Below are positions 1 through 28,626 of a stretch of 64,000 bases of DNA, in pieces. The notes beneath the pieces are model-generated. The model was not told the DNA's origin. It did no database searches and saw nothing but the letters and a program-made list of their open reading frames with translations. Within the stretch, counting starts at the first letter, position 1. Every line of letters begins with the position of its first letter. This stretch comes from Symbiodinium sp. CCMP2592 (taxonomy: Eukaryota; Sar; Dinophyceae; Suessiales; Symbiodiniaceae), in the NCBI GenBank assembly GCA_905221615.1, contig CAJNDT010003179.1:510311-574310 (forward strand). The letters are read 5' to 3'. The position numbers and the translations under genes are program-made.

Positions 1-73
<73 letters not shown>

Positions 74-6384: not shown

Positions 6385-6455
6385 TCGTCTACAAGGCATC
6401 GGAACCGGAACGGAGTGTTATCGTAGATCTTCTGTGCGAGTCGGATGCATCTGGA

Positions 6456-10959: not shown

Positions 10960-11059
10960 NNNNNNNNNNNNNNNNNNNNNNNNNNNNNNNNNNNNNNNNN
11001 NNNNNNNNNNNNNNNNNNNNNNNNNNNNNNNNNNNNNNNNNNNNNNNNNNNNNNNNNNN
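10960..11059. other. Assembly gap (100 N)
   Basis: Exactly 100 undetermined bases, the usual placeholder for a scaffold join of unknown size. The retrotransposon on the left and the methyltransferase-like gene on the right are both truncated here, so their adjacency is not proven. Confidence 0.98.
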
Positions 11060-12096
11060 AGTTGCTCCACAGTTGAAGCGGTTTCAGGATGGGCTGGCCG
11101 AAGGCACCACCATAGGTTTTGACCTTCATAGCCTGGATCATTCCCATGACACGATCGACGAGTGGAATGTCGAACAGCATGCTGGAGCAAGGCTGCTCGA
11201 TCACAAACCGGTTGTCATTCAAAGCCGCGAGCAAAGTCAACAGCAGCGTCACATACATGAAACGATTGCCGTCTTGGCATGCCAGCGATCGCTCAGGTTC
11301 TCCCATCCAGTCATTGGCAATGGACCTTCCAGTACTGTATTTACAGAGTTGGACGAAGGAAGAGCATGGAGTTCCAAACCACACCAGGCCGTGTTTGTGT
11401 GTTTGACACACAGCATTGACAGCCAGGCGAAGTGACCTCACAGAAAGAATATCATGATCTGTGCCGTACCTGATGTCCAAGGCTAGCCCCTGCCAGCCAG
11501 CACGGAGCATCTCCCGACTGAGGTTGCCCTGCCCTGCAAAGATCTCCAGGAAGTGGAACCTGGCACTCTGCCTTATGTTCCGCTTCCAATGACAAAACTT
11601 GATGAGGAATCTCATCTGTTTCTTCCATGGCCACGAAGTCATGATGGGAAAAGTTTCTGATAACATTTGTTGCCAGATTGATATCATCCAGGAAAACCAA
11701 CTGGCTTCAAGAATCACATCATAGTTGCACTCAGGCAGAACTTCATAAGGACCTTCATTATGGAACTCCAGAAGCGACGGGTCAACTTCGCAAAGGCGCA
11801 GAACATCCTGTCCTCTCGAAATGGACAAGAATCTCTTCTCCAGTGCGATGTTTGCATCAAACTGCCGCCGAATGTCTGCTAACAGTCTTCTTCTTGTTTC
11901 AGTCGGGTCATCTGCTGCTGCAGACATGGCACTCCGAATTGCACTGTGCATGGCACTCTGTCCTATCCGCAAGAAAGTGTAACACCTTAACCTCAAGGGT
12001 GTTCGAATTAACAACGTAATTGTGAACCAGAACATTCAGCAGTTGACACACTTGTGAGTCGATTGATCCATCACAACACAAGGATGAGACAGACAT
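11060..12096 (-). CDS. Cytosine-C5-methyltransferase-like protein, frame-broken at 13-bp motifs, C terminus in gap
   Basis: The minus-strand coding signal starts at ATG 12096. It shows the landmarks of a Rossmann methyltransferase of the DNA C5 type: FLEIFAGQGNLS (motif I-like, 11558-11517), WFGTPCSSF (motif IV-like with a Cys that would be the nucleophile, about 11380-11352), FVIEQPCSS (motif VI-like, about 11211-11180) and KPLQLWS before the gap. The Pro-Cys is preceded by Thr rather than the usual Pro. The coding frame changes three times. Two changes coincide with 13-bp motif copies (11952-11964, two mismatches; 11562-11574, exact), and leaving out 13 bases rejoins the frame each time. 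A third change, near 11.70-11.73 kb, is unexplained and may be an intron or indel. Related proteins are, to my knowledge, numerous in dinoflagellates. DNA versus other substrate is not decidable here. Confidence 0.6.
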
Positions 12097-12338
12097 GATG
12101 CAATCACTCGTTGAAATTCACATGTGGCATAGTTGTTGCAGACCATGACTTCATGCTCAAGCAATCAAATACAGCACTGCCAGACCCTCACTCGATTCTC
12201 GTTTTTCTGGTACCGCACACAGCAGTCCATCCATATCACTCGACGATTGCGAGACCACCGCGGTGGCAGCCACTTGTCAGGCAGATTCTGCACTGGCACT
12301 CTGCCTTCTATGCAGTCTTTGCTGGTGAGCTAAAATAA
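12097..12338. other. Short intergenic or intronic spacer with one 13-bp motif
   Basis: No frame stands out. It contains an exact 13-bp motif at 12295-12307 in the minus orientation. It may be a spacer between two same-strand genes or an intron; the stop of the upstream gene at 12339 favours a spacer. Confidence 0.4.
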
Positions 12339-13229
12339 TCAGTCTTCCATCTGACAAACAGCATTAGTGGAAGAAGCCTCAGAGTCGGACTCCTCACCTT
12401 CCTCCATCACATCTGAGGGGGCTCCATCATCCGCTGAGCCGCGCTGACTCCAGCCAGGGTCTTCTTCTGAGATGTGCCCATAATCAATACCCAAACGACC
12501 CCGCCCTCCAAGCTCACCAAGACGAACATCTAGAACACCTTCCTCAATCACATCTGAGTCTGAGGCGTGAATCTCACCTTCGGCACGAGCTGGCCCAGTC
12601 AACCAGGCATCCGGGCGAGATTCCAAACGAAACAAAATTTGACCACGAACTCCACTTTCGAACTCATCTGGCACTCTGCCTTCCGGCACTCTGCCTTCTG
12701 GCACTCTGCCTTCAGTAGCTCCACTGTTGGCATTATTGTTAGGGCCAGGATAGCCATTTTCAAGCATCGGCCTTGGCGGCACTATTGGTGGCGGCGGGTT
12801 GTCTGGAGCATTGAAACACATGGCACAAATCCGCCGTTCCAACTGCCGACGTTGCATCTCTTCAGGGGTCAAGTTCTCAAGGGTGACCAGAACAATGCGG
12901 CCCTCCCTAACAGTAACCACATCCGGCTCGAAGTTGATCATGATCGGGGTCTCCATAATGTCCAACGCTTCTGCCACAGCTTGGGCAATCTCAAACTCAT
13001 GTCGCGCAGGGGCGGGAGGTCTTGGGCCAGGTGGGGAAGGTGGCCGATTCACAGGCGTTGGTGGCGGCGGACCCATTTGTGGCCCTGGCACTCTGCCTTC
13101 CGCCCCACCACCTTCTTCACCAATGCCATTCACACAGGTTGGCGGCACTCTACGAGGCCGTCGCTTCGGAGTCCTCACCCCGCCGATCCTCCCCGCTGCT
13201 GCCGGTTTGGCCTTCGGTTTCGGTGCCAT
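12339..13229 (-). CDS. Proline-rich protein of unknown function with EGRVP insertions
   Basis: Single open frame of 296 codons from ATG 13229 (ACCATGG context) to TGA. The N terminus is basic (MAPKPKAKPAAAGR). A Pro-rich stretch follows, then a moderately conserved-looking middle (EFEIAQAVAEALDIMETPIM, then LENLTPEEMQRRQLERRICAMC) and an acidic Ser/Glu C-terminal tail. The 13-bp motif is carried in frame four times: once as AEGRVPG (13087-13099) and three times in tandem with a 15-bp period as EGRVP repeats (12670-12712). No known domain was recognised. Only one CxxC is visible, so a zinc finger is not supported. The next gene upstream is about 1.5 kb away. Confidence 0.7.
   Translation of the reverse strand: MAPKPKAKPAAAGRIGGVRTPKRRPRRVPPTCVNGIGEEGGGAEGRVPGPQMGPPPPTPVNRPPSPPGPRPPAPARHEFEIAQAVAEALDIMETPIMINFEPDVVTVREGRIVLVTLENLTPEEMQRRQLERRICAMCFNAPDNPPPPIVPPRPMLENGYPGPNNNANSGATEGRVPEGRVPEGRVPDEFESGVRGQILFRLESRPDAWLTGPARAEGEIHASDSDVIEEGVLDVRLGELGGRGRLGIDYGHISEEDPGWSQRGSADDGAPSDVMEEGEESDSEASSTNAVCQMED
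12670..12712 (-). repeat. Triple 13-bp motif with 15-bp period
   Basis: Three exact copies separated by 2 bp (cc, ct) encode three EGRVP pentapeptides in the proline-rich gene, showing local tandem growth of the motif. Confidence 0.9.
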
Positions 13230-13640
13230 GGTGCTTAACTTTAAATATCTTTGATCCAACAAGCTGCAAGCAACTATATGTGTTGGATAGTACGAACAGG
13301 TACTAGAAGGTGATTGTCATGTCCGTTTCAATACCACATGCAATAGGTTCCACTGGACGACACAAGCATTTATGCACATGATCATTAGATTAACACATAT
13401 TTGAAGACAGAGTGCTATTAATAGATGATGTAGTTTAATGTTCGAAAGCAGTATGCCCAATAATAAGTGTATGCATATAATCCATACATATATCTATATG
13501 TATGTATGTATGTTATAAATATACCTAGGTCTATGTGTAAACTTACCACACACAGTAACGGTTTAGGGTTTAAAAGAGCTTCAGGGTTTTAGGTTTTAAG
13601 GAGGTCCATGGTTTAAAGGTACTTCAAGGCAGAGTGCCAC
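13230..13640. other. Upstream region of the proline-rich gene
   Basis: Fairly AT-rich, with TATG/TATA-rich stretches at 13470-13525 and short GGTTTAGGGTTT/TTTAAGG repeats at 13559-13620. It holds the only 13-bp motif written AAGGCAGAGTGCC on the plus strand (13626-13638), opposite to all other copies. No gene seen. Confidence 0.6.
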
Positions 13641-14270
13641 CTAGTTTATGCTTAATCATAAGATGTGTTACTACTCGTAGGGATTTGGTTGGGTTAGCTG
13701 GACTGTGCCGATTTAATGGGATTCGATATTGTATAACTAGCTCCCAAGATTCAATAAGCTCCAACAAGACTTTTGGGAGGGGATGCTACATGTGTGCAAT
13801 TGTCTGGTACAGGGTCGGTGTGCCTTCAAAACGTGATGGCCCGAACACTAAGATGCAATAAGATTTTTTCGGGTAGTCCACAATCCTGCAAATGTCTTCT
13901 AAGATTCAATAAGATTTTTTGGGCGAGCTGGAGGCTGTGTCCCTTGTAAAACCGATAAGATTCAATAAGATTCAATAAGATTCAATAAGATTCAATAAGA
14001 TTCAATAAGATTCAATAAGATTCAATAAGATTTTTTCGGGGTATGCCACAATTGTACAAATGTCTTCTAAGATTCAATAAGATTCAATAAGATTTTTTGG
14101 GGCGATCTGGAGTCGTGTCCCTTTTAAAAATGATGGACCAATAAGATTCAATAAGATTCAATAAGATTCAATAAGATTTTTCCGGGGCATGCCACAAGTG
14201 TCACAAATGTCTTCTAAGATTTTGCAGGGCCTGTGGGGCGGTATGGGGATGGTGTCCCTCCAAAGGCCAT
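13641..14270. repeat. Minisatellite of ATAAGATTCA decamers inside a 160-190 bp higher-order repeat
   Basis: The decamer ATAAGATTCA is repeated about eight times at 13953-14032 and in shorter runs at 14068-14090 and 14140-14178. These runs are separated by recurring blocks containing AATAAGATTTTTTcGGG, a 'tatgccacaa-tgt-caaatgtcttct' block and a 'gtgtccctt' block. The whole looks like three to four diverged copies of a 160-190 bp unit. No coding potential. Confidence 0.8.
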
Positions 14271-14281
14271 ATGTTTTTTTT

Positions 14282-14460
14282 AACACGGATGCACCCCATT
14301 GCAGACTTCCGTGGTCCTTTGTTGGGTCCCTCCCAACTGGTGTTCTAGGACAGGTTGGATCCTGCCTTTTTTTAAACACGGATGCACCCCATTGCAGCTT
14401 CCGTGGTCTTTTGTTGGGTCCCTCCCAACTGGTGTTCTAGGACAGGTTGGATCCTGCCTT
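14282..14460. repeat. Tandem duplication, two copies of about 87-90 bp
   Basis: Copies at about 14282-14368 and 14375-14460 both run from AACACGGATGCACCCC through TTGGGTCCCTCCCAACTGG to GGTTGGATCCTGCC. They differ by a few substitutions and small indels. Non-coding. Confidence 0.85.
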
Positions 14461-14767
14461 TGGCGCGGATTTGTCCACAGGCATCTGCAGTATCCTTGTG
14501 AAATCGACAGACCGCCTGGGATTACAAAGAGACATACATTCCTGATGGCATAATGCAACACAAGGCAACACAATCATGTCAATACATAATGATCATGGAA
14601 CACATGTTACAACCCATGGCACTCCGCCTTCAGAAACATGTCTGTGACAATGGCATTGCCACACCTCCAAAATTAATAAGACTCGAGGCCACATCACCGA
14701 CAACACATACACATGAGCCAGTTATTGTGGCACTCTGCCTTGTTACCGAGCCACCTTGTCGACGCAA
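14461..14767. other. 3' flank of the RING gene
   Basis: No gene seen. It contains one exact 13-bp motif (14729-14741) and one with a single change (14618-14630), both in the minus orientation, so both would lie in the 3' untranslated region of the RING transcript if that extends this far. Confidence 0.5.
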
Positions 14768-16396
14768 TCAGTCCACCACGGGGTCGTTGACCTCAGGAGC
14801 TTCCTCTTCACGAGTGCGGTCGTTAACGAGTTGAGCTTGTATTTCCTGAACGATTGCGTCCACATCATTAGCATCATCTTCGACAGGAACAGGGGCATTG
14901 CTTCCCGTGGACCCCCTCGGACCCAAAAAGAACCTTGCCATAGAGGCTGAGCTCGCACACTTGAGAGGGCAAGCGGTGGCCTTGTTCCGCCCGGTCGACT
15001 CACAGTATCGATTGATACATTCGCTGTGAAAGAGGTGGCCACACGATAGCGCTTCCAATGCCTGCATTCCAGGGAAGCAACAGAAAAAGACACGTCATGT
15101 GAGAGGTACTGTTCTGAGGATTAGTGGAATGTACAAACAGGACAGGCACCACTATCAATGGTTCATTAACCAAAGGCAAACGAAACCAGCCTGCCTGGCC
15201 CGGGTGCATCTCCGAATGGCAAATGACACAGAGGTCCTGGTTCCACCGGTTCGCAGGTCTGCTCGACTCATTCGGAGCATCCTCCTCCTCCTCCTCAAAG
15301 AAGGCACTGTCGTCGGCCTCGCGCTCGACCTCGGCCTCGACCTCGGCCCCGGCCTCGACCTCGGCCCCGGCCTCGGCCATGACCTCATCATCGACCTCGA
15401 CTGCGACCTCGTCCTGCGACTCTGTGTTTGGTGCCGTCGCCCTGGCCTTGGACTTGGCCTTGGCTTTCGACTTGCCCTTGGCTTTTGCTTTGGCTTTCGA
15501 CTTGGGTGTCGCAAAGGGCACAACGGCATTCACGTCAGCACCAGCTGTCGAGTCACTGTTCGTGGAGGTGTCTGGCCCTGGCAACTCAACTGTTTGAGGT
15601 GCAGTGGTCACTTCTGCAGGAGGCATGACGATCTCCTGATCGGGCCTGATCTCTGCCTCTGCCGGCGCTAGACCATCGTCATCCATGGCAGGAGCATTCC
15701 CATCAACTGGCACTCTGCCTTCCACAACCCTCGGCACTCTGTCTTGTTCACTTCCTGCAGCCTGGCTGCCTTCGGTTGCCTGGCTTGCATTGGAACCCGG
15801 AACGGCATGAGGGGAGGCAGGCGGCTGTTGAATCGGCACTCTGCCTTGTTCCCCAGCCGGGCTGCGACCCACAGCCTGGCTTGGATTGGAACTAGGAGCA
15901 GTCGTTGGCAAAGGACCAGAACGGACCACGTCTGGCACTCTGCCTTCCGACGGCGGAACCGTTGGCGGGGCAGCTGGAGCAGGACTCGGATTGAAACTGA
16001 GACGTCCCTGCGTCTCAGTGGACTGCCTTGCTCTCGCTCTACGCCTGGCATAGGTCGTGACATCCTCGGTCATCCATGTGGACTGCCATCCACACTCCAA
16101 GGCAACCCTGTCAACAGAATGCTCAGACATATTCACCCCCATTCCCAGAACCGGTTTGGCTATGCGGTTCCAACTGCTGCTATCGCAGAGGGATTGACGC
16201 TTATGGGCATTCGCACATCGCTGACCAAGCAAGCTGTATTTGCTATCGACCCTGAGTTCACTGACCTTTGTGGTCGGCTTCAGATTGGTCAATATGAAGA
16301 GCAGTTGCAGCGCTGTTTGTTGTGGCAGGTCAGCCGTGACCGCGGCATCCCATGCACTATGAACTCGCTCGAGCAGAGCTTTCACCTTCACCTCAG
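14768..16396 (-). CDS. RING-H2 finger protein (probable E3 ubiquitin ligase), two 3' exons
   Basis: Exon 15195-16396 joins exon 14768-15061 across a 133-nt GC-AG intron. The join gives a RING-H2 finger: CVICHSEM, then CGHLFHSEC, then CPLKC. The Cys/His order is C2, C-x-H, H-x2-C, CxxC. RING-H2 proteins usually act as E3 ubiquitin ligases through these zinc sites. Upstream of the finger are a helical region (KALLERVHSAWDAAV near the start), a long Pro/Ser/Gln-rich disordered part with several EGRVP/QGRVP motif peptides, a Lys-Ala repeat (KSKAKAKAKGKSKAKAKS) and an acidic Glu/Val repeat. No ATG opens this frame, so it must be spliced to upstream exons. An acceptor at AAG|CCTTACTG (16396) is one option. 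The stop is TGA at 14768-14770. Confidence 0.75.
15062..15194 (-). other. GC-AG spliceosomal intron within the RING finger
   Basis: On the minus strand the exon ends CCGGGCCAG|GCAGG and the next begins TGCAG|GCATTGG. The intron is 133 nt, with a pyrimidine-rich stretch before its AG. Splicing brings the two halves of the RING finger into one frame, which is strong support. CAG|GCA occurs at both ends, as is typical of dinoflagellate introns. Confidence 0.8.
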
Positions 16397-16451
16397 TCAG
16401 TAAGGCTTATCTAGGCTTTGTGGGGGGAGGGTTCAGGGATCATTGCTGACC

Positions 16452-17150
16452 TTAGGGATACTCTGTTGATTGACAAGCAGCCAGAGGGATCGAACGCAAT
16501 GTCGTGGCGCTTCTCGGGATTGCATCTGCATCGGTAGTGGACGTTGCCAGCCGATCAATCCCGATCGTTGCTGCTTGCCTTGCTCTGTTCTTCTTGGTTT
16601 CCTTACGAATCCTCCTCACTTCTTGGTCTTCTGATTCCGACGAGGAGGAGTCGTTGGCACTCTGCCTTGATTCACCCACAGCAGCCATCTGCTGCTGTTG
16701 CTGCATTTGCTGCATCTGCTGCATTTGCTGCATCTGTTGCTGCTGCTGCATCTGTTGCTGCTGTTGCAACATGAAAGGGTTCATCATGGCCAGTGGGTTG
16801 TTCATTCCCATTGCTGGGTTCATTGCCCCCGGCATTGGGAACATCATCTGATCACTCACACGAGCGCTCTTCCTCGACTTTCCCATTGCTCTCGGCGACT
16901 GTCTCTGGCACTCTGCCTGGAAGCACCACTGCAGCACTAAGGGACTCGATCTTGAACACACATATGTTGATTGCGGCCAGGTCAAGAAATTCTTGCGCAT
17001 CCACTCACTAGTCACTAGAGTCCGTACACACTACGTGGCATGGTCCCATCAACGGCCAGATAGCAAGCGTTTCAGCTTCCACAACTCACAATCACTTGCA
17101 TCATGCATTCCAGCCTTGCCATAGTAGCCAACCACCTTGGACGCCAGCAC
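16452..17150 (-). CDS. Upstream exons, probably of the RING gene: conserved N-terminal part plus Gln/Met-rich region
   Basis: Exon 17096-17150 (VLASKVVGYYGKAGMHDA) joins by a GT-AG intron (17004-17095) to an exon starting at 17003 that reads MDAQEFLDLAAINICVFKIE and SLSAAVVL. At 16907-16919 lies a 13-bp motif copy with one change. The frame changes there; omitting 13 bases rejoins it to a frame with MGKSRKSARVSDQMMFPMPG, a Gln/Met repeat (about 16690-16770) and a charged tail with SSSSESEDQEVRRIRKETKK. Another motif (16656-16668) is carried in frame as RQSA. An alternative reading ends the exon earlier at a donor (T|GTGAGT, near 16869), leaving the Gln-rich part in an intron. The 5' end is not found. 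The link to the RING exons is inferred. Confidence 0.5.
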
Positions 17151-17596
17151 CTGAAAGGTTTTATGGGGCTGTCACAGGAAACCAAGGTTGAACCAATCAA
17201 TTCACAGGCACAGTAATTAATCCATCGAGTTACTGCCGACATGACTGTATGCATAGGCATCGTCTTTGTTTTCCAAAACGGCAAGCTGAAATGTGCCAGA
17301 TCAGACGGACTGCAAAAGTGACAACATTCAAACGCCCCAAGAAATGCGATTTCACATTGGCACTCTGCCTTTCCGGCACTCTGCCTAGTGACAGCGACAC
17401 AAAAATGAATCTGAACAGGCCACACTGTTTGGTGGCACTCTGCCTTAGTCACACCGAGAACTCTCTGGCACTCTGCCTTGTGAAAGTCCCCAGTGCCCAA
17501 GGACGAATGGGATGAAGAAGAGGAGGTCCACTAGATGGCTTTGTTTTGGCAACACAATTAATAAACCTACTCGTTCAGCTCAATCATTGACACTGA
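17151..17596. other. Inter-exon or intergenic stretch with four 13-bp motifs
   Basis: Four motif copies lie here in the minus orientation (17359-17371, 17375-17387 with last base changed, 17434-17446, 17467-17479). Fragments of protein-like sequence occur on the minus strand at about 17215-17290, but no exon could be closed with confidence. Confidence 0.4.
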
Positions 17597-20401
17597 TCAA
17601 TCCTGAAAGCCATCTGCAGTTACTCCCCAATCAGGAACGAAGTTCGCAGTGGTCTGGTAAACATCCACATAGTTATCCTCTTCTTCATCTTCCGATGGCG
17701 GGACATCATCACCCATCTGGCTCACCGCGTTTAGGTTTTCCCCCCTTGCCTTCTGTTCCAGCTTCTTCTGACAATACACAAGCATGGTGTAATTGTAAGC
17801 ATCCCAAATCTTGCACGACAAAGGCACAATCCAGCTCTGCAGGTCTTTGGGCCTGAATTTTTCCTTTGAGATGACATCTTCCGTCGTATAAACCTCAACG
17901 AGTCTCTTGGAGGCCTCCCACCAGTGCCAGTATGTCAGCTGTTTTCCCTTGACTCGATCACGGCCATGAACTGGCGGAGTGACATTGAACATGCACTGGA
18001 GAATCTGCTCAATGACCGCCACCCCAGTTTCCCTCTGAAGCCACAGGTGCCAGTCCCCAGGCTCAGAATTGTTTGGAATCTCCTTCACGTTCTGGTCACA
18101 CAACAGCTCCCAGACAACCGCAGTTTTCGAGCCCTTCGACCGAAAGTCATTCCACGCCATGTCCTTTCTATCCACTGGCACGTTATTCTTCTCGCATTCT
18201 CGGACTGTGATCTCATGGACAGCCATGAGCAGCTGGGTCATGACAGTCGTAGTCTTGCTGTTGAACTTCCGATCGTTGTGGTGGGGGTTGAACGGCTGAT
18301 CTTGTGGCACCGGTCTCGCCATACGTGCCCGATTGGCGAGGCGGCCCACCTTCGAAGTCGTCACCGCCCTGTGACTGCATGGCAGCATTCCCCGCAACGC
18401 TCTGAGAGTTTTCTCCTCCTCAGTCTCTGGCTGCAAAAGCTCGGCTGGAACCTTGATCTTGTTTTGACCCCTTGGCACTCTGCCTTGGGGGTCCGTAATT
18501 CCGAGGTCCTCCTCCGCTTCCAAGAAAGGCTTCACCTCTCCAGGCACTGGCGCAGTCGCACTCTTGGGGTTTGCGGCAGCCTTCGGGCTCGGGTCCACAT
18601 TCATAGCCTCCAGCTCGTTCATGACCTTGGCGACGACGGCATCGTGCTCGCTCTCAGTCACCCGGGTCTCCGGTACAGAAGGCATCGGCTCATCTTGCTC
18701 CTCTCGGAGATGGTCCCCTAGTACCATTGTTGCTTGGCTGTCACCCTCATCCTCGTCCAAGCGATCCGGGTCGGGCTCCGCCTCCATCTCAAGCGGCGGT
18801 TGCTCATCCTGCACCATAACCTCGACAAATTCCATTTCATCGTCCGACGGATCTTGCACAGGCTCCTCCTCTTCCACCACAACATCAACCAAAGTGTCCT
18901 CCTCCTCGGCTTCCACCTCCTCCTGCGGGTCCAACCATATTCCTCCCTTCTCCGTCTTCATATGCCGCAAAAAAGCAGGATGAGCTTCGCCTGGACGGCC
19001 CTTTCCAACAAGGTGAGTAGGGATATTGGGACGGCCCTTTCCAACAAGTGGCACTAGGGCTGGACGGCCCTTTCCAACAAGGTCAGTAGGGATATTGTCC
19101 TCCACTGGCACTCTGCCTTTGTGGCCCTTTCCGGCAGGCTTGCCCTTTTGGGCGAAGTAAGCTGCTTTCCCGATCGGGACGGCGTCGCCCTTGCTTTTCA
19201 AGCCCTGGGCCTTTGCCACCCAGGCCGGCTCAGCGCGTCGGCCCTGCGGAACGAAATTGGAGCCTCTTGCCGTATCGTCAGCATACTCGGCAAGTTCCTT
19301 GGCGAAATCCTGCTCGTCCATCCTTTGCTTTTCCGTCATTTCAGCAGGAGCACTTGCCGACATAAACTGTGGCTTGGAACCAACAGGCACAGGCTGTCCG
19401 TCGCCGAATTTCCTTTTGGCAGGAGGCTGCTTTGCCGGCGGGGGACCCATCGGCTCTGGCACTCTGCCTTGCTCTGCCGGCGGGGGACCCATCGGCTCTG
19501 GCACTTTTAGCACGGGATTCGGCTCGGGATCTGGCACTCTGCCTTGCTTTGCCGGCGGGGGACCCATCGGCTCTGGCACTCTTGGCGGGGGATTCGGCTC
19601 GGGATCTGGCACTCTGCCTTGCTTTGCCGGCGGGGGACCCATCGGCTCTGGCACTCTGCCTTGCTTTGCCGGCGGGGGACCCATCGGCTCTGGCACTCTT
19701 GGCCGGGAATTCGGCTCGGGATTCGGCTCATCGTCATGCCAGGCATCGTATTCGTCCTGGATGACGGGCATTCTGGCCGTTCTGCCCCAGCGATGTTGCT
19801 GCTGCTGGTGGCCAGGAGGAGGATGAGCTGGTTGCACCGGCCCCCTGCCCCTGCCAGGAGGAGGATGATCTGGTTGCACCGGCCCCCTGCCAGGAGGAGG
19901 ATGATCTGGTTGCACCCTGTTGCACCCCCAGCATGGTTCCCACTCCTGCTGCCAAGGGTGATCAGGCAGAGGCCCAGCATTTCGCAGCGGTCTTGCTGGC
20001 ACCTGCCACGGAGCAGGAGGCCTCGCCTTTTGCTGAGGCGGTTTATGCAAAGGCGGGCGGGCCCCCCTGGGAGGAGTCCCTTCAGGATGATGTATTGCTT
20101 TGCCTTTGCCTGGCACTCTGCCTTCTACTGGCACTCCTCCTTTCATGCCTTTGGCTTTTGCAGTCGCAGATCCAGGGGGATCCCAGGGAGGTGTCGAATC
20201 CCAACACTGAGGTGGCGGAGGATTCGGCGGCGCAAGTGCCTGCGGCTGAATTCTGCTCATTACTGCCCTTGTTGCCTCGACCCTCATTTGCTGGCATTGT
20301 TGCATCAAGTCCAGACCCTGCTGGAACTTTGCTTCCAGATTCTTGCACAACTTGTACAGATCGGTACACCATTTCACCAGTTCTCCACTTATTCGGTCCA
20401 T
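17597..20401 (-). CDS. Very proline-rich protein of unknown function (934 residues)
   Basis: Single open frame from ATG 20401 (ACTATGG context) to TGA. The N terminus is helical and probably coiled coil (VKWCTDLYKLCKNLEAKF onward). A long Pro/Gly/Arg-rich region follows, including HPPPGRG repeats, five copies of a 14-residue unit with EPMGPPPAKQGRVP, and GKGRP repeats. Then comes an acidic region rich in Glu and Asp (about nt 18600-18950). A probably folded C-terminal part of about 250 residues contains MAWNDFRSKGSKTAVVWELL and LTYWHWWEASKRLVEVYTTE. The 13-bp motif is used in frame many times as GRVP. No known domain was recognised. Coding sequence of the kinase-like gene overlaps its start in another frame, so the two may be one gene joined by a shift or an intron near 20400-20430. 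Confidence 0.6.
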   Translation of the reverse strand: MDRISGELVKWCTDLYKLCKNLEAKFQQGLDLMQQCQQMRVEATRAVMSRIQPQALAPPNPPPPQCWDSTPPWDPPGSATAKAKGMKGGVPVEGRVPGKGKAIHHPEGTPPRGARPPLHKPPQQKARPPAPWQVPARPLRNAGPLPDHPWQQEWEPCWGCNRVQPDHPPPGRGPVQPDHPPPGRGRGPVQPAHPPPGHQQQQHRWGRTARMPVIQDEYDAWHDDEPNPEPNSRPRVPEPMGPPPAKQGRVPEPMGPPPAKQGRVPDPEPNPPPRVPEPMGPPPAKQGRVPDPEPNPVLKVPEPMGPPPAEQGRVPEPMGPPPAKQPPAKRKFGDGQPVPVGSKPQFMSASAPAEMTEKQRMDEQDFAKELAEYADDTARGSNFVPQGRRAEPAWVAKAQGLKSKGDAVPIGKAAYFAQKGKPAGKGHKGRVPVEDNIPTDLVGKGRPALVPLVGKGRPNIPTHLVGKGRPGEAHPAFLRHMKTEKGGIWLDPQEEVEAEEEDTLVDVVVEEEEPVQDPSDDEMEFVEVMVQDEQPPLEMEAEPDPDRLDEDEGDSQATMVLGDHLREEQDEPMPSVPETRVTESEHDAVVAKVMNELEAMNVDPSPKAAANPKSATAPVPGEVKPFLEAEEDLGITDPQGRVPRGQNKIKVPAELLQPETEEEKTLRALRGMLPCSHRAVTTSKVGRLANRARMARPVPQDQPFNPHHNDRKFNSKTTTVMTQLLMAVHEITVRECEKNNVPVDRKDMAWNDFRSKGSKTAVVWELLCDQNVKEIPNNSEPGDWHLWLQRETGVAVIEQILQCMFNVTPPVHGRDRVKGKQLTYWHWWEASKRLVEVYTTEDVISKEKFRPKDLQSWIVPLSCKIWDAYNYTMLVYCQKKLEQKARGENLNAVSQMGDDVPPSEDEEEDNYVDVYQTTANFVPDWGVTADGFQD
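19430..19710 (-). repeat. Coding minisatellite, five diverged 42-bp-type units containing the 13-bp motif
   Basis: On the plus strand the block GCCGGCGGGGGACCCATCGG followed by CTCTGGCACTC occurs five times between about 19434 and 19700. Two neighbouring pairs are spaced 42 bp. The other spacings are longer because of an inserted GGATTCGGCTCGGGATCT unit. In four units the GGCACTC continues as the full 13-bp motif; elsewhere it reads GGCACTTTTAG or GGCACTCTTGG. Encodes PMGPPPAKQGRVPE-type repeats. Confidence 0.85.
19795..19925 (-). repeat. Coding tandem repeat of HPPPGRG units
   Basis: GGAGGAGGATGATCTGGTTG-type blocks recur three to four times on the plus strand, giving QPDHPPPGRGPV repeats in the proline-rich protein. 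Confidence 0.75.
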
Positions 20402-21503: not shown

Positions 21504-21660
21504 CCTGCGGCACTCTGCCTTGTCCAGCCAGATTGCGGCACTCTGCCTTGTCCAGCCAGATGCAGGCACTCAGCCTTCTCAGTCCAGCTCAAGGCACTCT
21601 GCAAAGAATGGCGAGGCGGCACTCTGCCTTATAATGTCGAAATGATATACTACCTCTGAC
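21504..21660 (-). promoter_or_regulatory. Leader of the kinase-like gene, a cluster of 13-bp motifs in a 28-bp tandem repeat
   Basis: Immediately upstream of ATG 21503 are exact motif copies at 21509-21521, 21537-21549 and 21618-21630, plus a one-change copy at 21565-21577 and a half copy at about 21593. The first two are 28 bp apart inside a duplicated block (CTGGCTGGACAAGGC...). All have the same orientation as the gene. They would lie in the 5' leader or in an N-terminal extension if translation began at the GTG at 21569. Confidence 0.55.
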
Positions 21661-22495
21661 GTCAATGTGTTGTTAGATTATAGTTACTAGTATTTGACAC
21701 AATTTAAATTATATCAACTATATTTTGATATTATGCTCACATTGACATTAAATATCATGCATATGCCATCATTCAAGGACCACGACTCACTTCACTTTGA
21801 GCAACTCCATCGACAGAATAATCATGACATGACACTTTTATTGAAGCAGCAGCTACACGGAGTTTAACTTAATTGAGGGGCCAGACAGACTCAGCATGAT
21901 CGGGAGCTTAGCACACGAATGAAACCTAATTCAAGGGCTGTGTTGATATTCAAATCTGCCATATGCCATGATTCAAGGACCACTGCAGCAACATTTGAAA
22001 TTTGAGCAACCATCATAAGCCATAGGCAAAACAATCATGACATGACACTTCAGAAGCCCGAGAATGCTAAGTTGAATTTGGCAACGCAGAAGCAGCATGA
22101 TCGGAAGCTAAGAACAGCACCGATGACCAGCAATCCTGGGGTCTGGAGACGCCAGCTGACGGCCAAACCTTGCATGGTCACTTTCATTCATACTCAGACT
22201 CTCTCAGCACAGTCGCAAACCCAACACATCCAACAGAACTCAGAAGTGCTCGGTCTTCAGAAGTCTCAGCACTCACAGTTTTGCTTCTGCAGCAAGCAAT
22301 GCTCTTCTGGAGGCACTACTCTGACAGCGACGAGGCCTTCTCCAAAACACTCACAACTTTGATCATGACTTGTTGGTTTGCCTGCACCACAAACAAATAA
22401 CCTGTTGCTGTGCGAAAGGCAGGCAGAAGTCCACATGAGCAGACATCGGCACTGAAAAACTTGAGAAGAGTCAGTCGACGAAGCCTGACCCACCT
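21661..22495. repeat. Gene-free AT-rich spacer with a diverged 160-200 bp duplication
   Basis: About 21757-21920 and 21957-22115 share blocks in the same order: CATATGCCATcATTCAAGGACCAC, AATCATGACATGACACTT and CAGCATGATCGGgAGCTtAG. They are diverged tandem copies about 200 bp apart. No gene is supported in the whole stretch, which ends where motif copies resume at 22496. Confidence 0.65.
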
Positions 22496-22649
22496 GGCAC
22501 TCTGCCTTCCTGGCACTCTGCCTTCGTCACTGTCCTGGCCTGAAAATTAAATTGATATTGGAATTTGGGCCAACCCACTCACTGAATGGTCCAATGGTGG
22601 GCACTCTGCCTTTGGCACTCTGCCTTTTAAGGCACTCTGCCCTTTTTTC
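22496..22649 (-). other. 3' flank of the zinc-finger gene with five 13-bp motifs
   Basis: Motif copies at 22496-22508 and 22512-22524, then 22600-22612, 22614-22626 and 22631-22643 (one change). They begin only a few bases after the stop codon at 22650, so they probably form closely spaced hairpins in the 3' untranslated region. No coding sequence. Confidence 0.6.
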
Positions 22650-23875
22650 TCACGGCCTTTCGACTTGAACGAATTCGCTGTCTACAGGTGTCATTTGAAC
22701 TTGCTCAATCATAGGCAATTCGAACTCGTTGTAATCCTCCTCATCTTCCACACGCTCTTCATTCCAGGCCTCCGGATCATCTTCGTCGTAAGCGAATCTC
22801 ACCATGGTCGTGGTCCACAAGATTTGGTCACCGTCGGTGACTTCCCCGTCCCACAGCGTCAAATTCTCCACCCCCCGCGCCCAGCCCTCATTACAGGCAT
22901 AGAGCCATCTTTTGTCCATCATCACTTGCATGCCTGCACCGGTGAGTTCCAGCTTCAGGTAAGCTGGCGGTGCGTGTGGATCGATCCTGAACTGAGATCA
23001 TGTTGAAGTTGCTACTTGATTCTAGTCAGTATTAAGATCCGTAGGTATAAGATAATAAATAAATGTAGCGTCGAAGCATTGCTTGAATCTGAGTGGCCAT
23101 CTAATGCACTTTGGCCACCATTGGTAGCGTTGAAGGGCCGTCTGGGCCGTGGGGCGCAAGGACCAGTGCGGATAACTTTTGTGAGTGTTATCCTGCGTGG
23201 CACCGGGTTGCGCCCAAGCGGCGATGCCGTTCGCTTTGAAGAATTCAAAGCGAACCTGCAGGGAGACATCCAGTCAAGCAGTAAGAAACACTCACAATCA
23301 ACACATGCTATGATTATCATCACATACACTGCCCACTGCCTGCCAAACGTCCTCCACGCACATGAAGTATGTGTAAAGGATCTGGTTGGGGTCTTGCATC
23401 GGGATTTTGCCCTTCTTTCCCTTGCCCTTGCCAAGATCGCCCTTGCTCGCACTGGCACTCTGCCCTGGCCCTGGCTTTCCTCCTCCCTTACTTCCTCCCT
23501 TCCCGACCTGACTTGTTCTTTGGGATTGACCGGCGTTGCTCAAGTTGGCCATCTGCCAACTTGAAAACTCTTGCAGCCGAGTGCGCTGGCGAACTGCGCC
23601 CGTGTTTTCCATGGCGGATAATGACTTGCCCACTGCACAAATGGGACAAGGGCACTCTGCCTTACACCGGAACCCAGACAGCTGCAACAGCACAAGTAGG
23701 CAAAAATGAGCACTCATTACAATCACCGGAGACTGACTGTTAAAGTCACACTTGCACCCACTGAGTCGCCGGCTGGATTCACTCATCCAATCGCCCCAGC
23801 GGCCCTGATCACCATGTCGGCACAACCGACAAAGGAACTGACAGTTTCCACAACCGAGACGGGCATGATCTCACT
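22650..23875 (-). CDS. Cys-rich zinc-finger protein, at least four exons
   Basis: On the minus strand a first segment (about 23875-23765) reads CGNCQFLCRLCRHGDQGRWG and DWMSESSRR, a Cys-rich zinc-binding pattern. After an intron whose donor is not resolved, exon about 23700-23340 contains CPCPICAVGKSL, a basic/Gly-Lys-rich region and QDPNQILYTYFMCVEDVWQ. A GC-AG intron (23256-23339) leads to exon 23110-23255 (VRFEFFKANGIAAW onward). A GT-AG intron (22987-23109) leads to exon 22650-22986 (IDPHAPPAYLKLELTGAGMQ, VMMDKRWLYACNEGW, acidic C terminus). Both introns join in frame into smooth protein-like sequence, which supports the model. A 13-bp motif (23651-23663) falls between the first Cys residues of the second exon, reading CKAECPCP. 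Function unknown, possibly nucleic-acid or protein binding. Confidence 0.6.
22987..23109 (-). other. GT-AG intron of the zinc-finger gene
   Basis: Minus strand: CCAAA|GTGCATT ... CAGTTCAG|GATCGATCC, 123 nt. The join gives YQWWPKIDPHAPPAY without a frame change, while both flanking frames meet stops if unspliced. Confidence 0.65.
23256..23339 (-). other. GC-AG intron of the zinc-finger gene
   Basis: Minus strand: GTTTGGCAG|GCAGTGG ... CTCCCTGCAG|GTTCGC, 84 nt, with CAG|G at both ends. Joining gives VEDVWQVRFEFFKANG in one frame. The exon after it begins with a perfect 12-bp inverted repeat with a 3-nt loop (23229-23255). Confidence 0.7.
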
Positions 23876-24130
23876 TTCTTTTTAAGCTCAGTCAGTAACA
23901 CCGGCAGCCAGGTTTAAAAGCACGAATTAAGCTGTGACTGCCAGCTGAAAGTGGGAATGTAACTATTAGCCTTATCAAGGTAAGGACTGTGTTTCACTTC
24001 CAGCCAGCAGTCCAGTGTCGGGTCCAGGACTCTCTGGCTGGGCCAGTGTCGGGACACAAATTTCGACGGCTCAGAATCATTCATTGGAGCAGAACTGTTT
24101 GACCATGGACTTCGGGTTCAGTGTCGATGA
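23876..24130. other. Spacer between zinc-finger and phosphatase genes
   Basis: No gene, repeat or 13-bp motif seen in these 255 bases. A short repeat with CCAGTGTCGGG occurs twice near 24012-24054. Confidence 0.5.
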
Positions 24131-25428
24131 TCAACTGTACGTGTGCAGCTCATCCTGCATTTCCAGCAGTGCTTCAATCATGTACTCACGATCCCGGAAT
24201 GGAGCATAGTAGGCTCGGTGGTTGATCCACCTGACAATGGCTTGTTCCATGGTCATCGAGGCAAAGGCCATGACTAGGACACAATAAGCAGCACAGGTCC
24301 TGTTAATGCCACCGTAGCAATGGACAAGCACACGAATTGGCCTCTTCTTGCCTCCACGCTTCCGACCACCTCCCTGAAGCTTCATCGCCTCCAACAAAGC
24401 AAGAGCATTACCGAGCTCACCAGGGAATGTCTCATCGGCCACCTTCAAGGCACTCTGCCTTCCATCGGCACTCTGCCTTCCTCAGCGGCTCTTCCGAACA
24501 GGCTGCCCATGTCACTTCCCTTGCTGAAGCCCTTGTCATAGGAGCAGCCATAGCCAAATGAGCCCTTCGTCGATGCCTTCTGGCTTTGCATGTGATTGGA
24601 AACCTGACAGGGGCCGCTGTAGCCCTTGCTGATTGTCTTGCCCTTGCCCCTGCCGCCATTGGCCTTGCCCATCATTTTGCCCTTGATGGCACTCTGCCTT
24701 TGACTCTGGCTGAACTCCTCTGCTGAGCGCTGCCAGCACATCATAATCTTTCTGAAATCTGAAATGAGGCGGCGCCAAATGGTCTTGAACTCATGACTTC
24801 TTTGTTCAGCATCAAAGTCATTGGCATGTGTTTGATCCCAGCCACCATACCGAAGATGTGCAGTGCCAAACGGTCCACAATTCGCCAAATACTGATACCA
24901 GTCCCATGGCTCAAAATTCCGAGGTCTGTCATCTGCATTCATAGAGATGACAATGTCAGGCTTGACCCGGAGCTGGTCATATCGGATCGGGCAACCAATA
25001 CTGCCAACAAACAGTTGCCACTGGGGATGGTCGTAAATCAAAACATCATCCATGGGCCACGTCTCGACATCATGCTGGCATGGCCGAGGTGGCGGGATCG
25101 ACCCAGGCAGCACATCTGTCTGGCCGGTCCATGCTTTGTACAACTTCATATCCATATCTCCGAAATCTGAGATGGCCTCAACTGCCAATTTGATTCGTTG
25201 ATCCAATTGTGCAGCCCTTTGGATCTTTCGGAGCCCGGTGGTATAGTCGGCAGCTGATCTGCCACAGTGTAAACAATTCCACCGAAGTTGTTGCACGGCT
25301 TCGTTCCAGTAATCACTGCCAAGGTCAATGTGATTGGCCTGATTCTGATGGTCAGCAGCAGAAGTCTGGCACTCTGCCTCGGAACTCCCTGAGCACCTTG
25401 AAACGGTCGTCGGCATCACTGCTTTCAT
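24131..25428 (-). CDS. Dual-specificity phosphatase-like protein, frame changed at two 13-bp motifs
   Basis: ATG 25428 opens a frame of 327 codons (WNCLHCGRSAADYTTGLRKI, DDRPRNFEPWDWYQYLANCG) that ends in a TGA created inside a motif. The C-terminal part, in another frame from 24448, contains VLVHCYGGINRTCAAYCVLV. This is the Cys-x5-Arg phosphate-binding loop of protein tyrosine/dual-specificity phosphatases, with Cys as nucleophile, and is followed by helices as in that fold. Exactly at the frame change lie two motif copies (24449-24461, 24467-24479). Omitting both (26 bases) gives one continuous frame through AEGWLKVADETFPGEL. Other motif copies are in frame (24688-24700 as RQSA, 25368-25380 variant as EAEC). 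A Gly/Lys-rich linker precedes the phosphatase part. The first eight codons lie inside the downstream 870-bp tandem duplication, so the true 5' end is uncertain. Intact as a protein only if the motif pair is removed or bypassed. Confidence 0.6.
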
Positions 25429-26278
25429 CGAGCACCCAATTGTCCAACGATTAAAACATTAACAGTGACTAATGCATCACTATACAGTACATTAACCAAT
25501 GATATGTAACATTGTGTTACTACTGTTACATCAGTATGAATGAATCACTTGATTCCCTGGCCGGCAGATGTCGATCATGTATGGTGCAAGGCAACTCACT
25601 GACAGACTATGCAGGCAGGCAGGCAGGCAGCCAGCCTCGGAGACAGCAGGGTCCTGAGGACATCACTGCCACCCGGCACTGTGTAGTCAGCATGTCATGC
25701 TGGGTAACCTTTTTGAATCCAAGTTGCGCACACTACCGCTGAGGTCTCAAATCGGACAGTCTAGCTCTGCTGGCGAGATCGTCGAATTCAAAATCCTCTA
25801 AGCACACGCAAACCCGGCACTCTGCCTTCCCCAACATCCGTAATACGGTCTCGGAGGCTGTACAAACACGACAAATCATTGATTCAGTGACGACACAAAT
25901 TCGTCTGACACATTGTAATGTAAAATTCCTGGCACTCTGCCTTGCCGCACAAATCTCGGAACGAGTACGCACAGGATCATGTCATTGATATGCCAGTCTA
26001 CTTGCAAGACTTGCCCACGCTCTTCAGAATTCAGAAACATCCACAATGTCGAAAAGGACTCCTCTAGCAGCTCGTCGAAATAAATCACATAATCATCGTC
26101 GTCAAAACTGTCCGCGACCGAGCCCACAAACGAACCCCCAAACGCCGCAGTGCTTGCAAACTCGCCAACAGCCAATAAGTCCGAGACCGAGCCCAGAGAC
26201 TCACTGTCACTCCACGACGTCGACGACATCTGCCGGCTTGCACGGAGGCCTACTACGACTTAGACTAGAGACAGAGCA
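25405..26278. repeat. Tandem segmental duplication, copy A (874 bp)
   Basis: Starts GGTCGTCGGcATCACTGC and runs to the same point in copy B. It carries one small acidic protein gene, two 13-bp motifs (25816, 25931) and a GCAGGCAGGCAGGCAGGCAG run of about five GCAG units at 25610-25633. Most differences from copy B are point changes and small indels. Confidence 0.9.
25733..26229 (-). CDS. Small acidic protein, copy A
   Basis: ATG 26229 opens 117 codons (stop near 25876): a Ser/Asp-rich N terminus (MSSTSWSDSESLGS), SVADSFDDDDYVIYFDELLE and LNSEERGQVLQVDWHINDM, then the in-frame motif peptide QGRVP and HYNVSDEF. Downstream in another frame (25733-25972) a Cys-containing segment reads ICRVCTASETVLRMLGKAEC then CVCLEDFEFDDL, which recalls the start of a RING finger but lacks the rest. 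The part upstream of the motif is well kept between the two copies, suggesting selection. Function unknown. An intron or motif skipping may join the frames. Confidence 0.45.
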
Positions 26279-27140
26279 GGTCGTCGGGATCACTGCTTTC
26301 ATCGAGCACACTTCAATTGTCCAAAGATTAAAACATTAACAGTGACTAATGCATCACTATACAGTACATTAATCAATGATATGTAACATTGTGTTACTAC
26401 TGTTACATCAGTATGAATGAATCACTTGATTCCCTGGCCGGCAGACAGATGTCGATCATGTATGGTGCAAGGCAACTCACTGACAGACTATGCAGGCAGG
26501 CAGGCAGCCAGCCTCGGAGACAGCAGGGTCCTGAGGACATCACTGCCACCCGGCACTGTGTAGTCAGCATGTCATGCTGGGTAACCGTTTTGAATCCAAG
26601 TTGCGCACACTACCGCTGAGGTCTCAAATCGGACAGTCTAGCTCTGCTGGCGAGATCGTCGAATTCAAAATCCTCTAAACACACGCAAACCCGGCACTCT
26701 GCCTTCCCCAACATCCGTAATACGGTCTCGGAGGCTGTACAAACACGACAAATCATTGAAGCAGTAACGCCAGAAATTCGTCTGACACATTGTAATATAA
26801 AATTCCTGGCACTCTGCCTTGCCGAAAATCCCGCCGAAGTCTCGGAAAGAGTGTGAACATGATCTGCTCATTGACAGACCAGGCTACTTGCAAGACTTGC
26901 CCACGCTCTTGAGAATTCAGAAACATCCAGAATGTCGTAAAGCACTCCTCTAGCATCGTGTCGAACGGAATCACAGAATCATCGTCGTCAAAACTGTCCG
27001 CGACCGAGCCCGCAGTGCTTGCACCCTCATCGTCAACCAGAACCCAGTCCGAGCCCAGAGACTCACTGTCACTCCACGACGTCGACGACATCTGCCGGCT
27101 TGCAGGGGGGCCTACTACGACTTAGACTTGAGACAGAGCA
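26279..27140. repeat. Tandem segmental duplication, copy B (862 bp)
   Basis: Immediately follows copy A, beginning GGTCGTCGGgATCACTGC and ending TTGAGACAGAGCA. The two 13-bp motifs (26693, 26808) are at positions equivalent to those in copy A, so they were present before duplication. The GCAG run is shorter here. Confidence 0.9.
26600..27091 (-). CDS. Small acidic protein, copy B
   Basis: ATG 27091 opens 112 codons to a stop at 26753. The sequence is similar to copy A (MSSTSWSDSESLGSDWVLVD, SVADSFDDDDSVIPFD, LNSQERGQVLQVAW, QGRVPGILYYNVSDEF) with several substitutions and two short deletions. The CVCLEDFEFDDLASRARLSD segment is identical downstream in another frame. Tandem same-strand copies of genes are typical of dinoflagellate arrays. 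Confidence 0.45.
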
Positions 27141-27533
27141 GCTGTAACACGACTATAGTAGATTACGCAGGGCAACAGCGAGCACAACTGCTGCAGCGGC
27201 AAGTTGCGATACATGACACGCTCACTGACTATGCAAGGCAGCTTGTCCTCTGCGATGGCAGCATGTCCTCAGGATCCTCGTCATGAGCCTCGGTGCCAGG
27301 ACTGTACCATAATAATGGAAGTAGCTGAAGCAAGCTGATGCTGAGATCCCAGCAGTTGGCATCCACTTCTCGATGGGCTGGAAGCCGATGAAGACCGATG
27401 GGAGAGAAGGAAATGGAAGAGAAGGCGTTCACTAGGCTTGGATTCAAACCGAACACTTAGACCTGGCCAACGGTGTGGGGAGCAACCCCGATGGGGCAGG
27501 GACTTAAGTAAGGCAACCTCGAGAGGCTCGACT
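27141..27533. other. Gene-free spacer
   Basis: No gene, repeat or 13-bp motif recognised. The short open frames on the minus strand look like chance. Confidence 0.5.
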
Positions 27534-28066
27534 GGCACTCTGCCTCTGTCGATCCAAGTCGCAAGGCTCCCTAACTAACGTGACAAGCATGGATGGCCTC
27601 CCCTCCTGGTTGGGAGAAAAATAAAAAAGCCACAACCACTGGACCACCCCACCCAGCACTTTAGCCCATGTGCCCGGGTGTCATATGCCACTGCCCTGGC
27701 ACGTTGGCCCCAAGGCGGTCCAGGTACCATCGACAACACCTGACACCCGGCCAACGGTGTCCACGAACCGAGATGGGCAGTCGATCCGTGTGGGTAAGGT
27801 GGCACTCTGCCTCTGTCGCTCCAAGTCGCAAGGCTCACTAACGTGACAAGCATGGATGGCCTCCCCTTCCTGGTTGGGAAACAGATCAAGCAACAACCAC
27901 TGGACCACCCCACCCGGCACTTTAGCCCATGTGCCCGGGTGTCATATGCCACTGCCCCACGTTGGCCCCAGGCGGTCCAGGTACCATCGACTCAACACCT
28001 GACACCCGGCCAACGGTGCCCACGAACCGAGAAGGGCAGTCGATCCGCGTGGGTAAGGGCAAGATC
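27534..28066. repeat. Tandem duplication of a 267-bp unit, each copy starting at a 13-bp motif variant
   Basis: Copies at 27534-27800 and 27801-28066 begin GGCACTCTGCCTCTGTCG and include CAAGCATGGATGGCCTCCCC, CACTGGACCACCCCACCC, GTGCCCGGGTGTCATATGCC and CACCTGACACCCGGCCAACG. They differ by small indels. These are the last motif copies before the gene-poor half. No gene. Confidence 0.9.
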
Positions 28067-28440
28067 TCAAGGCAAGTCAACATGTCACTACGGCCTCCCT
28101 TCTTTGTTCAATCACAACCCAAAACTATTTAAAAAGATTAAATATTAAAAATTATTAACTTCAACAACAAATAAACAACAATTTTGTAGACATACAGCAG
28201 CAGGAAACCAGGTAGAACAACAGGAAGCCAATTGACTCACTCAGAAACAAAATTCACAAACATGTATTTTTTACACCAAAAATAAAATAAAAGAATTTTA
28301 ACAACTGTAAAACACAAAAAAACCTATTTAAAAAACTTTTAAATACAAAACAATACTTTTAAATACAAAAAAACACTTTTAAACACAAATAAAGCCAACC
28401 ACATACAAAAATGAGATTTTGGGTTCCTTTCATATAAGCC
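28067..28440. other. AT-rich boundary zone
   Basis: Poly-A/T-rich sequence with AAAACACTTTTAAATACAAA-like repeats (about 28325-28400) separates the motif-bearing gene block from the gene-poor half. No gene seen. Confidence 0.6.
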
Positions 28441-28626
28441 TTGTTGATCTAAACCCTGTGGTTCTGGTTCGGCGCAAAGGGTTAAGGATCAAAACCCTTC
28501 GCATCTCTCGGCCAGATGCAAAAAGTTGCGACCCGGAAGCAAAGGGAAGCAAAAGGCAGCTGCGCAAGGGTTTGGGGCCCCTGAGGGTTTACAGGTGAAA
28601 GAACCTTGGGAGCCCTGCGTATCTAG

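Follow-up and report, generated by a model that had tools for sequence, protein, structure and literature searches.

A hairpin motif dispersed in one orientation through a giant transposon of Symbiodinium: a possible family-specific RNA tag

In a stretch of 64,000 nucleotides from the dinoflagellate Symbiodinium sp. CCMP2592 (contig CAJNDT010003179.1, called the window below), a 13-base motif, AAGGCAGAGTGCC, is repeated in one orientation through the genes and spacers of a block that ends at 28,488. We find that the block is a copy of a giant terminal-inverted-repeat (TIR) DNA transposon to which the motif is tied, that the motif occurs in three reading frames and in non-coding sequence, and that a second, related family carries a covarying hairpin of its own, also in one orientation. 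The accumulation is real and beyond chance, and the motif is not an independent micro-element. As the explanation we favour, with a probability of about 0.5, that family-specific RNA hairpins tag the element's own transcripts.

On the minus strand, which is the gene strand there, 38 exact copies of the motif were found, and on the plus strand one (13,626–13,638), all inside 11,562–27,813. Copies with one mismatch number 11 on the minus strand and none on the plus strand. In total there are 50 matches with at most one mismatch, while 100 dinucleotide shuffles give an expectation of 0.12 and a maximum of 2. Neither the 13-mer nor its 11-base core is present at 1–10,959 or 28,489–64,000 of the window. 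The palindromic core, GGCAGAGTGCC, was found 46 times on the minus strand against once on the plus strand, and as RNA it folds into a 4-bp stem with the loop GAG (−2.9 kcal/mol). Searches for an Rfam family at the gathering threshold and for a tRNA gave nothing for the motif. The 49 minus-strand copies are divided between 31 that lie inside 13 listed open reading frames (ORFs), where they are read in three frames as GRVP, RQSA and AEC, and 18 that lie outside every listed ORF; several of the 13 ORFs run from stop to stop and take in leader sequence.

These results agree with most of what an initial annotation of the same DNA had claimed, namely about 39 exact and about 12 near copies where chance predicts essentially none, a single copy in the opposite orientation, the RNA fold GGCA-GAG-UGCC, and a motif that is not a codon or domain repeat. 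The last point is borne out by the three frames and the non-coding copies, and the fold gains weight from the hairpin of the second family.

The source genome (assembly size 1.098 Gb) contains 16,243 exact copies of the motif, compared to 11 of the reversed control word. Their orientations are near equal genome-wide (7,894 vs 8,349), which is nominally against the orientation bias of the initial annotation but uninformative, because the element copies sit on both strands. Motif patterns restricted by their flanks gave 3, 2 and 1 matches, while 63, 254 and 63 are expected in random contexts (by our arithmetic, a four-base flank keeps about 63 of the 16,243 copies and a three-base flank about 254). 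Because these matches are far fewer than in random contexts, nearly all genome copies of the motif seem to lie in copies of one repeated block. The six loci retrieved with these patterns have 5–11 motif copies each in 3 kb, and their spacings, judged by eye, resemble either the window block or the left-end minisatellite described below.

The window copy (W) was compared with two others, C1, which has tandem units, and C4. The blastn identities to W are 95.3–97.5% (gapped, longest pieces), and the substitutions outside the motifs amount to 2.0–2.5% in pairs with W. The right end falls on the same base in all three (28,488 in W), and unrelated DNA follows. The left terminus is at 1,146,663 in C1 and at 80,577 in C4, and was found again in L046. 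In C4, the left and right termini are inverted with respect to each other over 46 bp at 91% identity, and the unit is about 24 kb long. The shared right end, the unrelated flanks and the TIRs of about 46 bp establish the block as a giant TIR DNA transposon in a dinoflagellate nuclear genome. Concerning the target-site duplication, the C4 flanks allow about 3 bp, but inside a CTA/CTG microsatellite, and C1 sits in (AT)n. With 53 exact motif copies on C4, the genome-wide count corresponds to about 300 element equivalents (our arithmetic).

Two side observations concern the architecture of the copies. C1:1,146,663–1,190,172 includes a 14.8-kb tandem duplication within one element copy, so that copies also grow internally. 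A 94-bp minisatellite at the left end of C1 (L031:7121–7912) has the motif in the opposite orientation, and it is also present at 81.0 kb of C4 and apparently in L046.

On its gene strand the element has ORFs for a 962-aa protein (in the C1 copy), a methyltransferase-like protein, a protein with a weak RING match and a dual-specificity-phosphatase-like protein, and an ORF of 1293 codons. The residues D41, D226, D249, D257 and E373 of the 962-aa protein are invariant or nearly so, from which we infer a DDE transposase. Its ORF has zero stops inside the match in 48 scored genome copies (of 774), and has no match in Pfam or the PDB. The family to which it belongs (P0034–P0065) is large, several members representing clusters of 40–296 sequences; nine members scanned in Pfam gave no match, nor did the family in the PDB. 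Other PDB sequence searches gave weak matches at most (best E 0.33). A protein of Symbiodinium necroappetens, P0031, is among the relatives of the element's proteins, in line with a Symbiodiniaceae host. In viral_contigs, the paired-motif scan for the motif gave 0 matches, and a scan for distant 962-aa relatives gave 44 pattern stretches with 0 confirmed.

The corresponding scan of genome_contigs gave 48 pattern stretches and one confirmed case, the 7.8-kb contig L061 (JASJEH010000121.1), which has a gene for a relative of the 962-aa protein at 34% identity. Upstream of it, on the same strand, is a methyltransferase-like gene with 34% identity to the C1 copy (E 1e-42), and C1 shows the same arrangement of the two genes in order and strand. 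Although L061 is part of a bacterial metagenome-assembled genome (MAG) of Methyloceanibacter, it is probably a eukaryotic mobile-element contig present as contamination. The core of the window element's hairpin (A) is absent from L061, and L061 has a hairpin (B), CCCTTGC-N6-GCAGGG, that is absent from the W and C4 elements. Each of the two related elements thus has a hairpin of its own and lacks that of the other.

Hairpin B is found within both L061 genes and between them. A regular expression gave 10 copies on the plus strand and 0 on the minus strand (0.01 expected), and a pairing scan 11 on the plus strand and one unlike sequence on the minus strand (0.4 expected), expectations that are optimistic since the patterns were drawn from the contig tested. 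In 12 aligned copies, 89.6% of the cells are paired, compared to 19–49% when the alignment is slid. The hairpin has a bulge, G-U pairs and compensatory arm changes: three of its eight pairs are changed on both arms (two from C-G to U-A, one from G-C to A-U). The pairs were counted without the copy at 3752, which duplicates the one at 3320 in its hairpin and 3′ flank. The six two-sided cells were reached in 7 of 500 shuffles, and the covariation score of 0.244 in 6 of 500. The B pattern has 52 scattered matches in the Symbiodinium genome itself (control 12), an indication that this genome lacks the B family, and 10 of its 12 matches in the MAG are on L061.

The tie between motif and family is also seen among the protein relatives, which retain the motif in three frames at places that shift. 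For 23 relatives of the large ORF, the motif peptides in the three frames number 34/24/5 in sense and 6/0/0 in antisense, and for 10 relatives of the phosphatase 3/23/9 and 0/0/0, respectively. Among the 32 relatives of the 962-aa protein, 21 motif peptides are found in the four at 80–86% identity and one in the 28 distant ones (26–45%), which also contain five antisense peptides. In some of these 28, other peptides are dispersed: P0040 has five copies of GVVP, P0039 five of GVLP, P0038 three of RGVVP, P0063 four of LAPA and P0059 three of LAATQG. In a test for dispersed tetrapeptides with 200 shuffles, the observed values of P0040 and P0063 were never reached. Translated back into DNA, G-x-[VL]-P is compatible with GGC-NNN-NTG-CC, which would be a hairpin of type A with a different loop, although these peptides are known here from the protein only.

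We have also examined how the motif sites change between element copies. In the alignments with W, where C1a and C1b are copies from C1 and the figures are changed over total columns, motif versus rest, we obtain 1/642 versus 413/16,462 for W–C1b (p 5e-6), 0/512 versus 274/12,538 for W–C1a (p 3e-5) and 3/642 versus 324/16,021 for W–C4 (p 0.002). The reduction holds for coding as well as for non-coding sequence (p 0.0004 to 0.05; 0/299 versus 214/7,369 for non-coding W–C1b), and for W–C1b and W–C4 it persists when CpG sites are left out. At 65 sites with at most two mismatches, the two A's outside the palindrome hold 10 of the 20 substitutions.

The sites themselves are mostly common to the element copies. 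The gains among copies are a 16-bp duplication (W only), a 24-bp one (L053) and a 75-bp repeat difference, and the aligned copies contain no clean 13-bp insertion difference. Lineages were compared at about 43–64% identity. The segments LIQGVEDNWDD of P0001 and LLQGRVPSENN of P0007 have equal length, as do IKEATVAVQDFG of P0024 and IKKAECQVDNFG of P0029 (read by eye), the ancestral state being unsettled in both pairs. TALKAECHHKSLL in P0034 and P0036 corresponds without gaps to AAGGCAAAGGGCC in the Symbiodinium genome itself and to other residues in distant families, and FDARQSAAAARQSAAAARQSAL in P0029 differs from FDARQSAAAARQSAL in P0031 by a five-codon tandem change. Since the differences between lineages either keep the length or are short tandem duplications, the motif is not a 13-bp insert; its sites seem to arise by substitution or local tandem duplication and to disappear in the same ways.

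We now consider what the hairpins might do. In the proposed explanation, hairpin A (AAGGCA-GAG-UGCC), sitting in the sense strand across the genes and spacers of the ~24-kb transposon, would be displayed in many copies by the element's transcripts, and a protein encoded by the element would bind it and thereby recognise its own RNAs. Export, translation, packaging or protection from silencing are possible uses of this recognition. From family to family, hairpin and binder would diverge in parallel, and related elements would likewise carry other hairpins. In its full form, as an RNA bar code of giant dinoflagellate transposons that runs through genes and even conserved coding sequence and is read by an element-encoded protein, such that no family handles the transcripts of another and hairpin and reader change together, the proposal is more tentative, and we consider it somewhat less probable than its opposite. 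The codes of related families would then include hairpin B of L061 and perhaps the dispersed peptides of P0040 (GVVP), P0039 (GVLP) and P0063 (LAPAQG).

It is important to point out that a number of observations weigh against this explanation or limit its evidence. The independent sites are fewer than the copy count, since there are tandem and segmental duplicates among the copies: 12,670–12,712 is a 15-bp tandem triple, 19,458–19,662 a 75/42-bp repeat, and 25,816–26,820 belongs to an 877-bp duplication. The motif-bearing genes of the block face one way, so that orientation to gene and orientation to element are inseparable. Over the full length of C4, 54 cores point one way and 10 the other; nine antisense copies are at the left end, the site of the 94-bp minisatellite, whose opposite-facing copies this explanation does not account for. 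The 4-bp stem of A is near-invariant and hence has no covariation of its own. The covariation of B comes from 12 sequences on one contig, its outermost pair fails in 6 of the 12, and its number of two-sided pairs is unremarkable (141 of 500 shuffles reach it). The reduced change at motif columns is tied to W: C1b–C4 gives 4/663 versus 198/16,157 (p 0.2), and the rates for C4–C1a (3/533 versus 56/12,206) and C1b–C1a (1/533 versus 69/12,699) show little or no signal. In 13 copies of the large ORF, the variable motif columns are 4/117 versus 262/3,695 (p 0.14, not significant), and 0/18 versus 27/598 at fourfold sites. The tetrapeptide test is weak even in the motif's own family. The observed value was reached by 3 shuffles for P0035, 4 for P0039, 7 for P0034, 9 for P0057 and 37 for P0059, the best word of P0036 (5/200) is not the motif, P0037 (152/200) and P0038 (197/200) fail, and the remaining relatives give nothing. 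A Pfam scan of 17 ORFs found no recognised RNA-binding domain.

Several other explanations were considered. The imperfect palindrome GGCA-N3-TGCC might act as DNA, either as a duplex site for an element protein, in the way that VANC proteins bind short motifs of VANDAL transposons and lift their silencing, or as a cue for the transposase or for recombination. The palindromic core with its tolerated outer bases, the non-coding arrays and the oppositely oriented copies at the left end all fit this, and so does a motif that differs between related families, as it does for the VANDAL transposons in the parts of PMC5735166 consulted. However, despite the symmetric half-sites, 46 of the 47 cores in the window block and 54 of the 64 on C4 share one orientation, the motif enters coding sequence in three frames, and the L061 hairpin has a bulge, compensatory changes and G-U pairs. 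A nearly symmetric word that keeps to one orientation is not what a dimer site in duplex DNA would lead one to expect, but is still compatible with an asymmetric site. We regard a DNA-level tag as unlikely, at about one chance in a few. A functionless word, prone to slippage or conversion, that multiplied in one element and was then amplified with it is slightly less likely again. It would account for the many local duplicates (15, 16, 24, 75 and 877 bp), for sites that are mostly common by descent and for the uneven conservation signal tied to one copy, but not easily for the reduced change at non-coding motif columns in W–C1b, for single motif copies in gap-free conserved stretches, or for the analogous covarying hairpin of a distant related family.

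The initial annotation had compared the motif to Rickettsia palindromic elements and had attributed its orientation bias to selection or insertion linked to transcription. Identical 13-mers dispersed over genes and spacers are indeed what mobile hairpins inserting independently would leave, and the motif is oriented along the genes as stated. But the sampled genome copies sit in copies of one ~24-kb TIR transposon, the sites are mostly shared among element copies, the gains are tandem duplications, and the motif lies in stretches that align without gaps to motif-less relatives. Independent insertion, and with it the likeness to the Rickettsia elements, is thus largely refuted and very improbable. 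The further objection foreseen there, that the motif might occupy fixed sites as ordinary conserved codons, holds for a single site: ERQSA, which 14 of the 15 aligned proteins have. Finally, GRVP is the commonest reading of the motif in the window ORFs, as a short linear motif acting in the protein would require, but the same DNA is also read as RQSA and AEC and has copies outside ORFs, which rules this candidate out for practical purposes.

The features of the window block are as follows.
11,060–28,488, minus strand: partial giant transposon (~24 kb), from blastn to C1 and C4 and the shared right end; the left ~7 kb are missing past the assembly gap at 10,960–11,059.
11,062–12,035, minus strand: ORF that we take to be C5-DNA-methyltransferase-like from its motifs FLEIFAG and GTPCSSF, without a Pfam match; one RQSA-frame motif at 11,562.
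12,295–12,307, minus strand: single spacer copy of the motif.
12,339–13,238, minus strand: proline-rich ORF with four EGRVP copies (12,670; 12,685; 12,700; 13,087).
13,626–13,638, plus strand: the sole exact opposite-oriented copy in the window, between ORFs.
14,618–14,741, minus strand: two spacer copies, at 14,618 (variant AAGGCGGAGTGCC) and 14,729.
14,768–16,391, minus strand: RING-type gene in two reading frames (zf-RING_2 in Pfam, E 3.1e-4, under the curated cut-off), with GRVP-frame copies at 15,709, 15,733 (variant), 15,835 and 15,934.
16,656–16,919, minus strand: a copy read as RQSA within a Q-rich ORF (16,656) and a variant shortly before the likely ATG of that ORF (16,907).
17,359–17,479, minus strand: spacer array between ORFs with four motif copies (17,375 variant).
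17,597–21,503, minus strand: large ORF whose frame is broken in W, with motifs at 18,474; 19,107; 19,458; 19,533; 19,608; 19,650; 20,112; 20,611; 20,632; 21,144.
21,509–21,630, minus strand: leader array directly upstream of the ATG at 21,503, with copies at 21,509; 21,537; 21,565 (variant); 21,593 (decayed); 21,618.
22,496–22,643, minus strand: spacer array with five motif copies (22,631 variant).
23,454–23,663, minus strand: copies at 23,454 (variant) and 23,651.
24,131–25,428, minus strand: phosphatase-like ORF (HCYGGINRT), broken in W, with motif copies at 24,449, 24,467, 24,688 and 25,368 (variant, near the N-terminus).
25,437–27,141, minus strand: 877-bp direct duplication with two motif copies per unit (25,816/25,931; 26,693/26,808).
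27,534–27,813, minus strand: two GAGGCAGAGTGCC variants close to the right end, within a repeated segment.
28,436–28,481, no strand: right TIR of about 46 bp, 91% identical to the left terminus of C4, coordinates transferred from C4.

The large ORF has 1293 codons from stop to stop in C4 (1271 from the ATG) and zero stops inside the match in 78 scored genome copies (of 2,268 candidates); its relative P0008 has four motif peptides upstream of the aligned start. The phosphatase-like ORF has 442 codons from stop to stop in C1 and C4. In Pfam, its window piece matches CDKN3 (E 1.8e-4, above the cut-off) and DSPc (E 6e-4, below), while the full ORF of C1 is under both cut-offs. The 16-bp tandem gain that is private to W among four aligned copies lies in the spacer array at 22,496–22,643. 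A 10-bp unit, AATCTTATTG, forms arrays at 13,943–14,201 within the element, close to the sole opposite-oriented exact copy. The left part of W is cut by the gap of 100 N's, beyond which there is a retroelement-like region without the motif: at 1330–11,122 on the plus strand are ORFs of 1684, 1283 and 272 aa with a frame change, presumably Copia-like, motif-free in 1–10,959. On the other side, 28,500–64,000 has dispersed CCCTAAA-type telomere-like words, AT microsatellites, one ORF of at least 150 aa and no motif.

Among known systems, the closest functional parallel is VANC–VANDAL. According to the parts of PMC5735166 consulted, every VANDAL family has built up a short motif of its own, which is different in related elements and forms tandem arrays. 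These Mutator-like elements of Arabidopsis resemble the present case, seen in two families only, in being transposons with a family-specific short motif. Their motif is, in the same parts of that source, a duplex DNA site in non-coding regions, whereas here 31 of 49 copies are in ORFs (some in leader parts) and the motif is a hairpin, mostly in one orientation. No VANC relative was identified, Pfam reporting no such domain in the 17 ORFs scanned. The closest RNA parallel is the dispersed packaging signals of viruses. Packaging signals vary in sequence and require a capsid protein. The copies here are near-identical and belong to a DNA element, and the Pfam matches of the 17 ORFs include no capsid family. 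What is shared, as far as the consulted parts of PMC5431903 describe it for single-stranded RNA viruses such as parechovirus, is the many short sense-strand stem-loops across coding RNA.

Rickettsia palindromic elements and the bacterial REP/REPIN sequences are short palindromes, some of them within coding sequence; the present motif differs in being bound to one transposon and in having no insertion footprint. DNA uptake sequences of Haemophilus and Neisseria spread one exact short word through coding sequence, apparently by substitution, and are in this respect similar. They are bacterial, genome-wide and on both strands, while the motif here is in a dinoflagellate, tied to one element and mostly in one orientation. 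A methyltransferase-like gene in a Symbiodinium mobile element recalls SymbioLINE-Dnmt and SymbioDIRS-Dnmt3, the DNMT-carrying dinoflagellate retrotransposons described in parts of PMC5890265, in contrast to which the present element is a multi-gene TIR element; the words 'hairpin' and 'terminal inverted' have 0 occurrences in the main text of that paper. An earlier description of the motif or the element was not found in the literature searched (titles and abstract beginnings, with preprints and most subscription papers outside the search), and none of the six hairpin or stem-loop passages of the review PMC12787238 is about this motif. The motif system, whose function is putative, falls outside the known systems with which it was compared.

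The common view is that transposons reserve their products for themselves by cis-preference or by terminal repeats. If the hairpins indeed tag the element's transcripts, self-recognition would here be achieved in another way, by a dense hairpin code specific to the family, and protein sequence would be constrained from the RNA level. The code would operate in organisms whose gene control is mostly post-transcriptional, according to the parts of PMC12787238 consulted. The explanation would also suggest an RNA–protein pair to look for, and would offer a testable handle on the spread of large multi-gene elements in dinoflagellate genomes.

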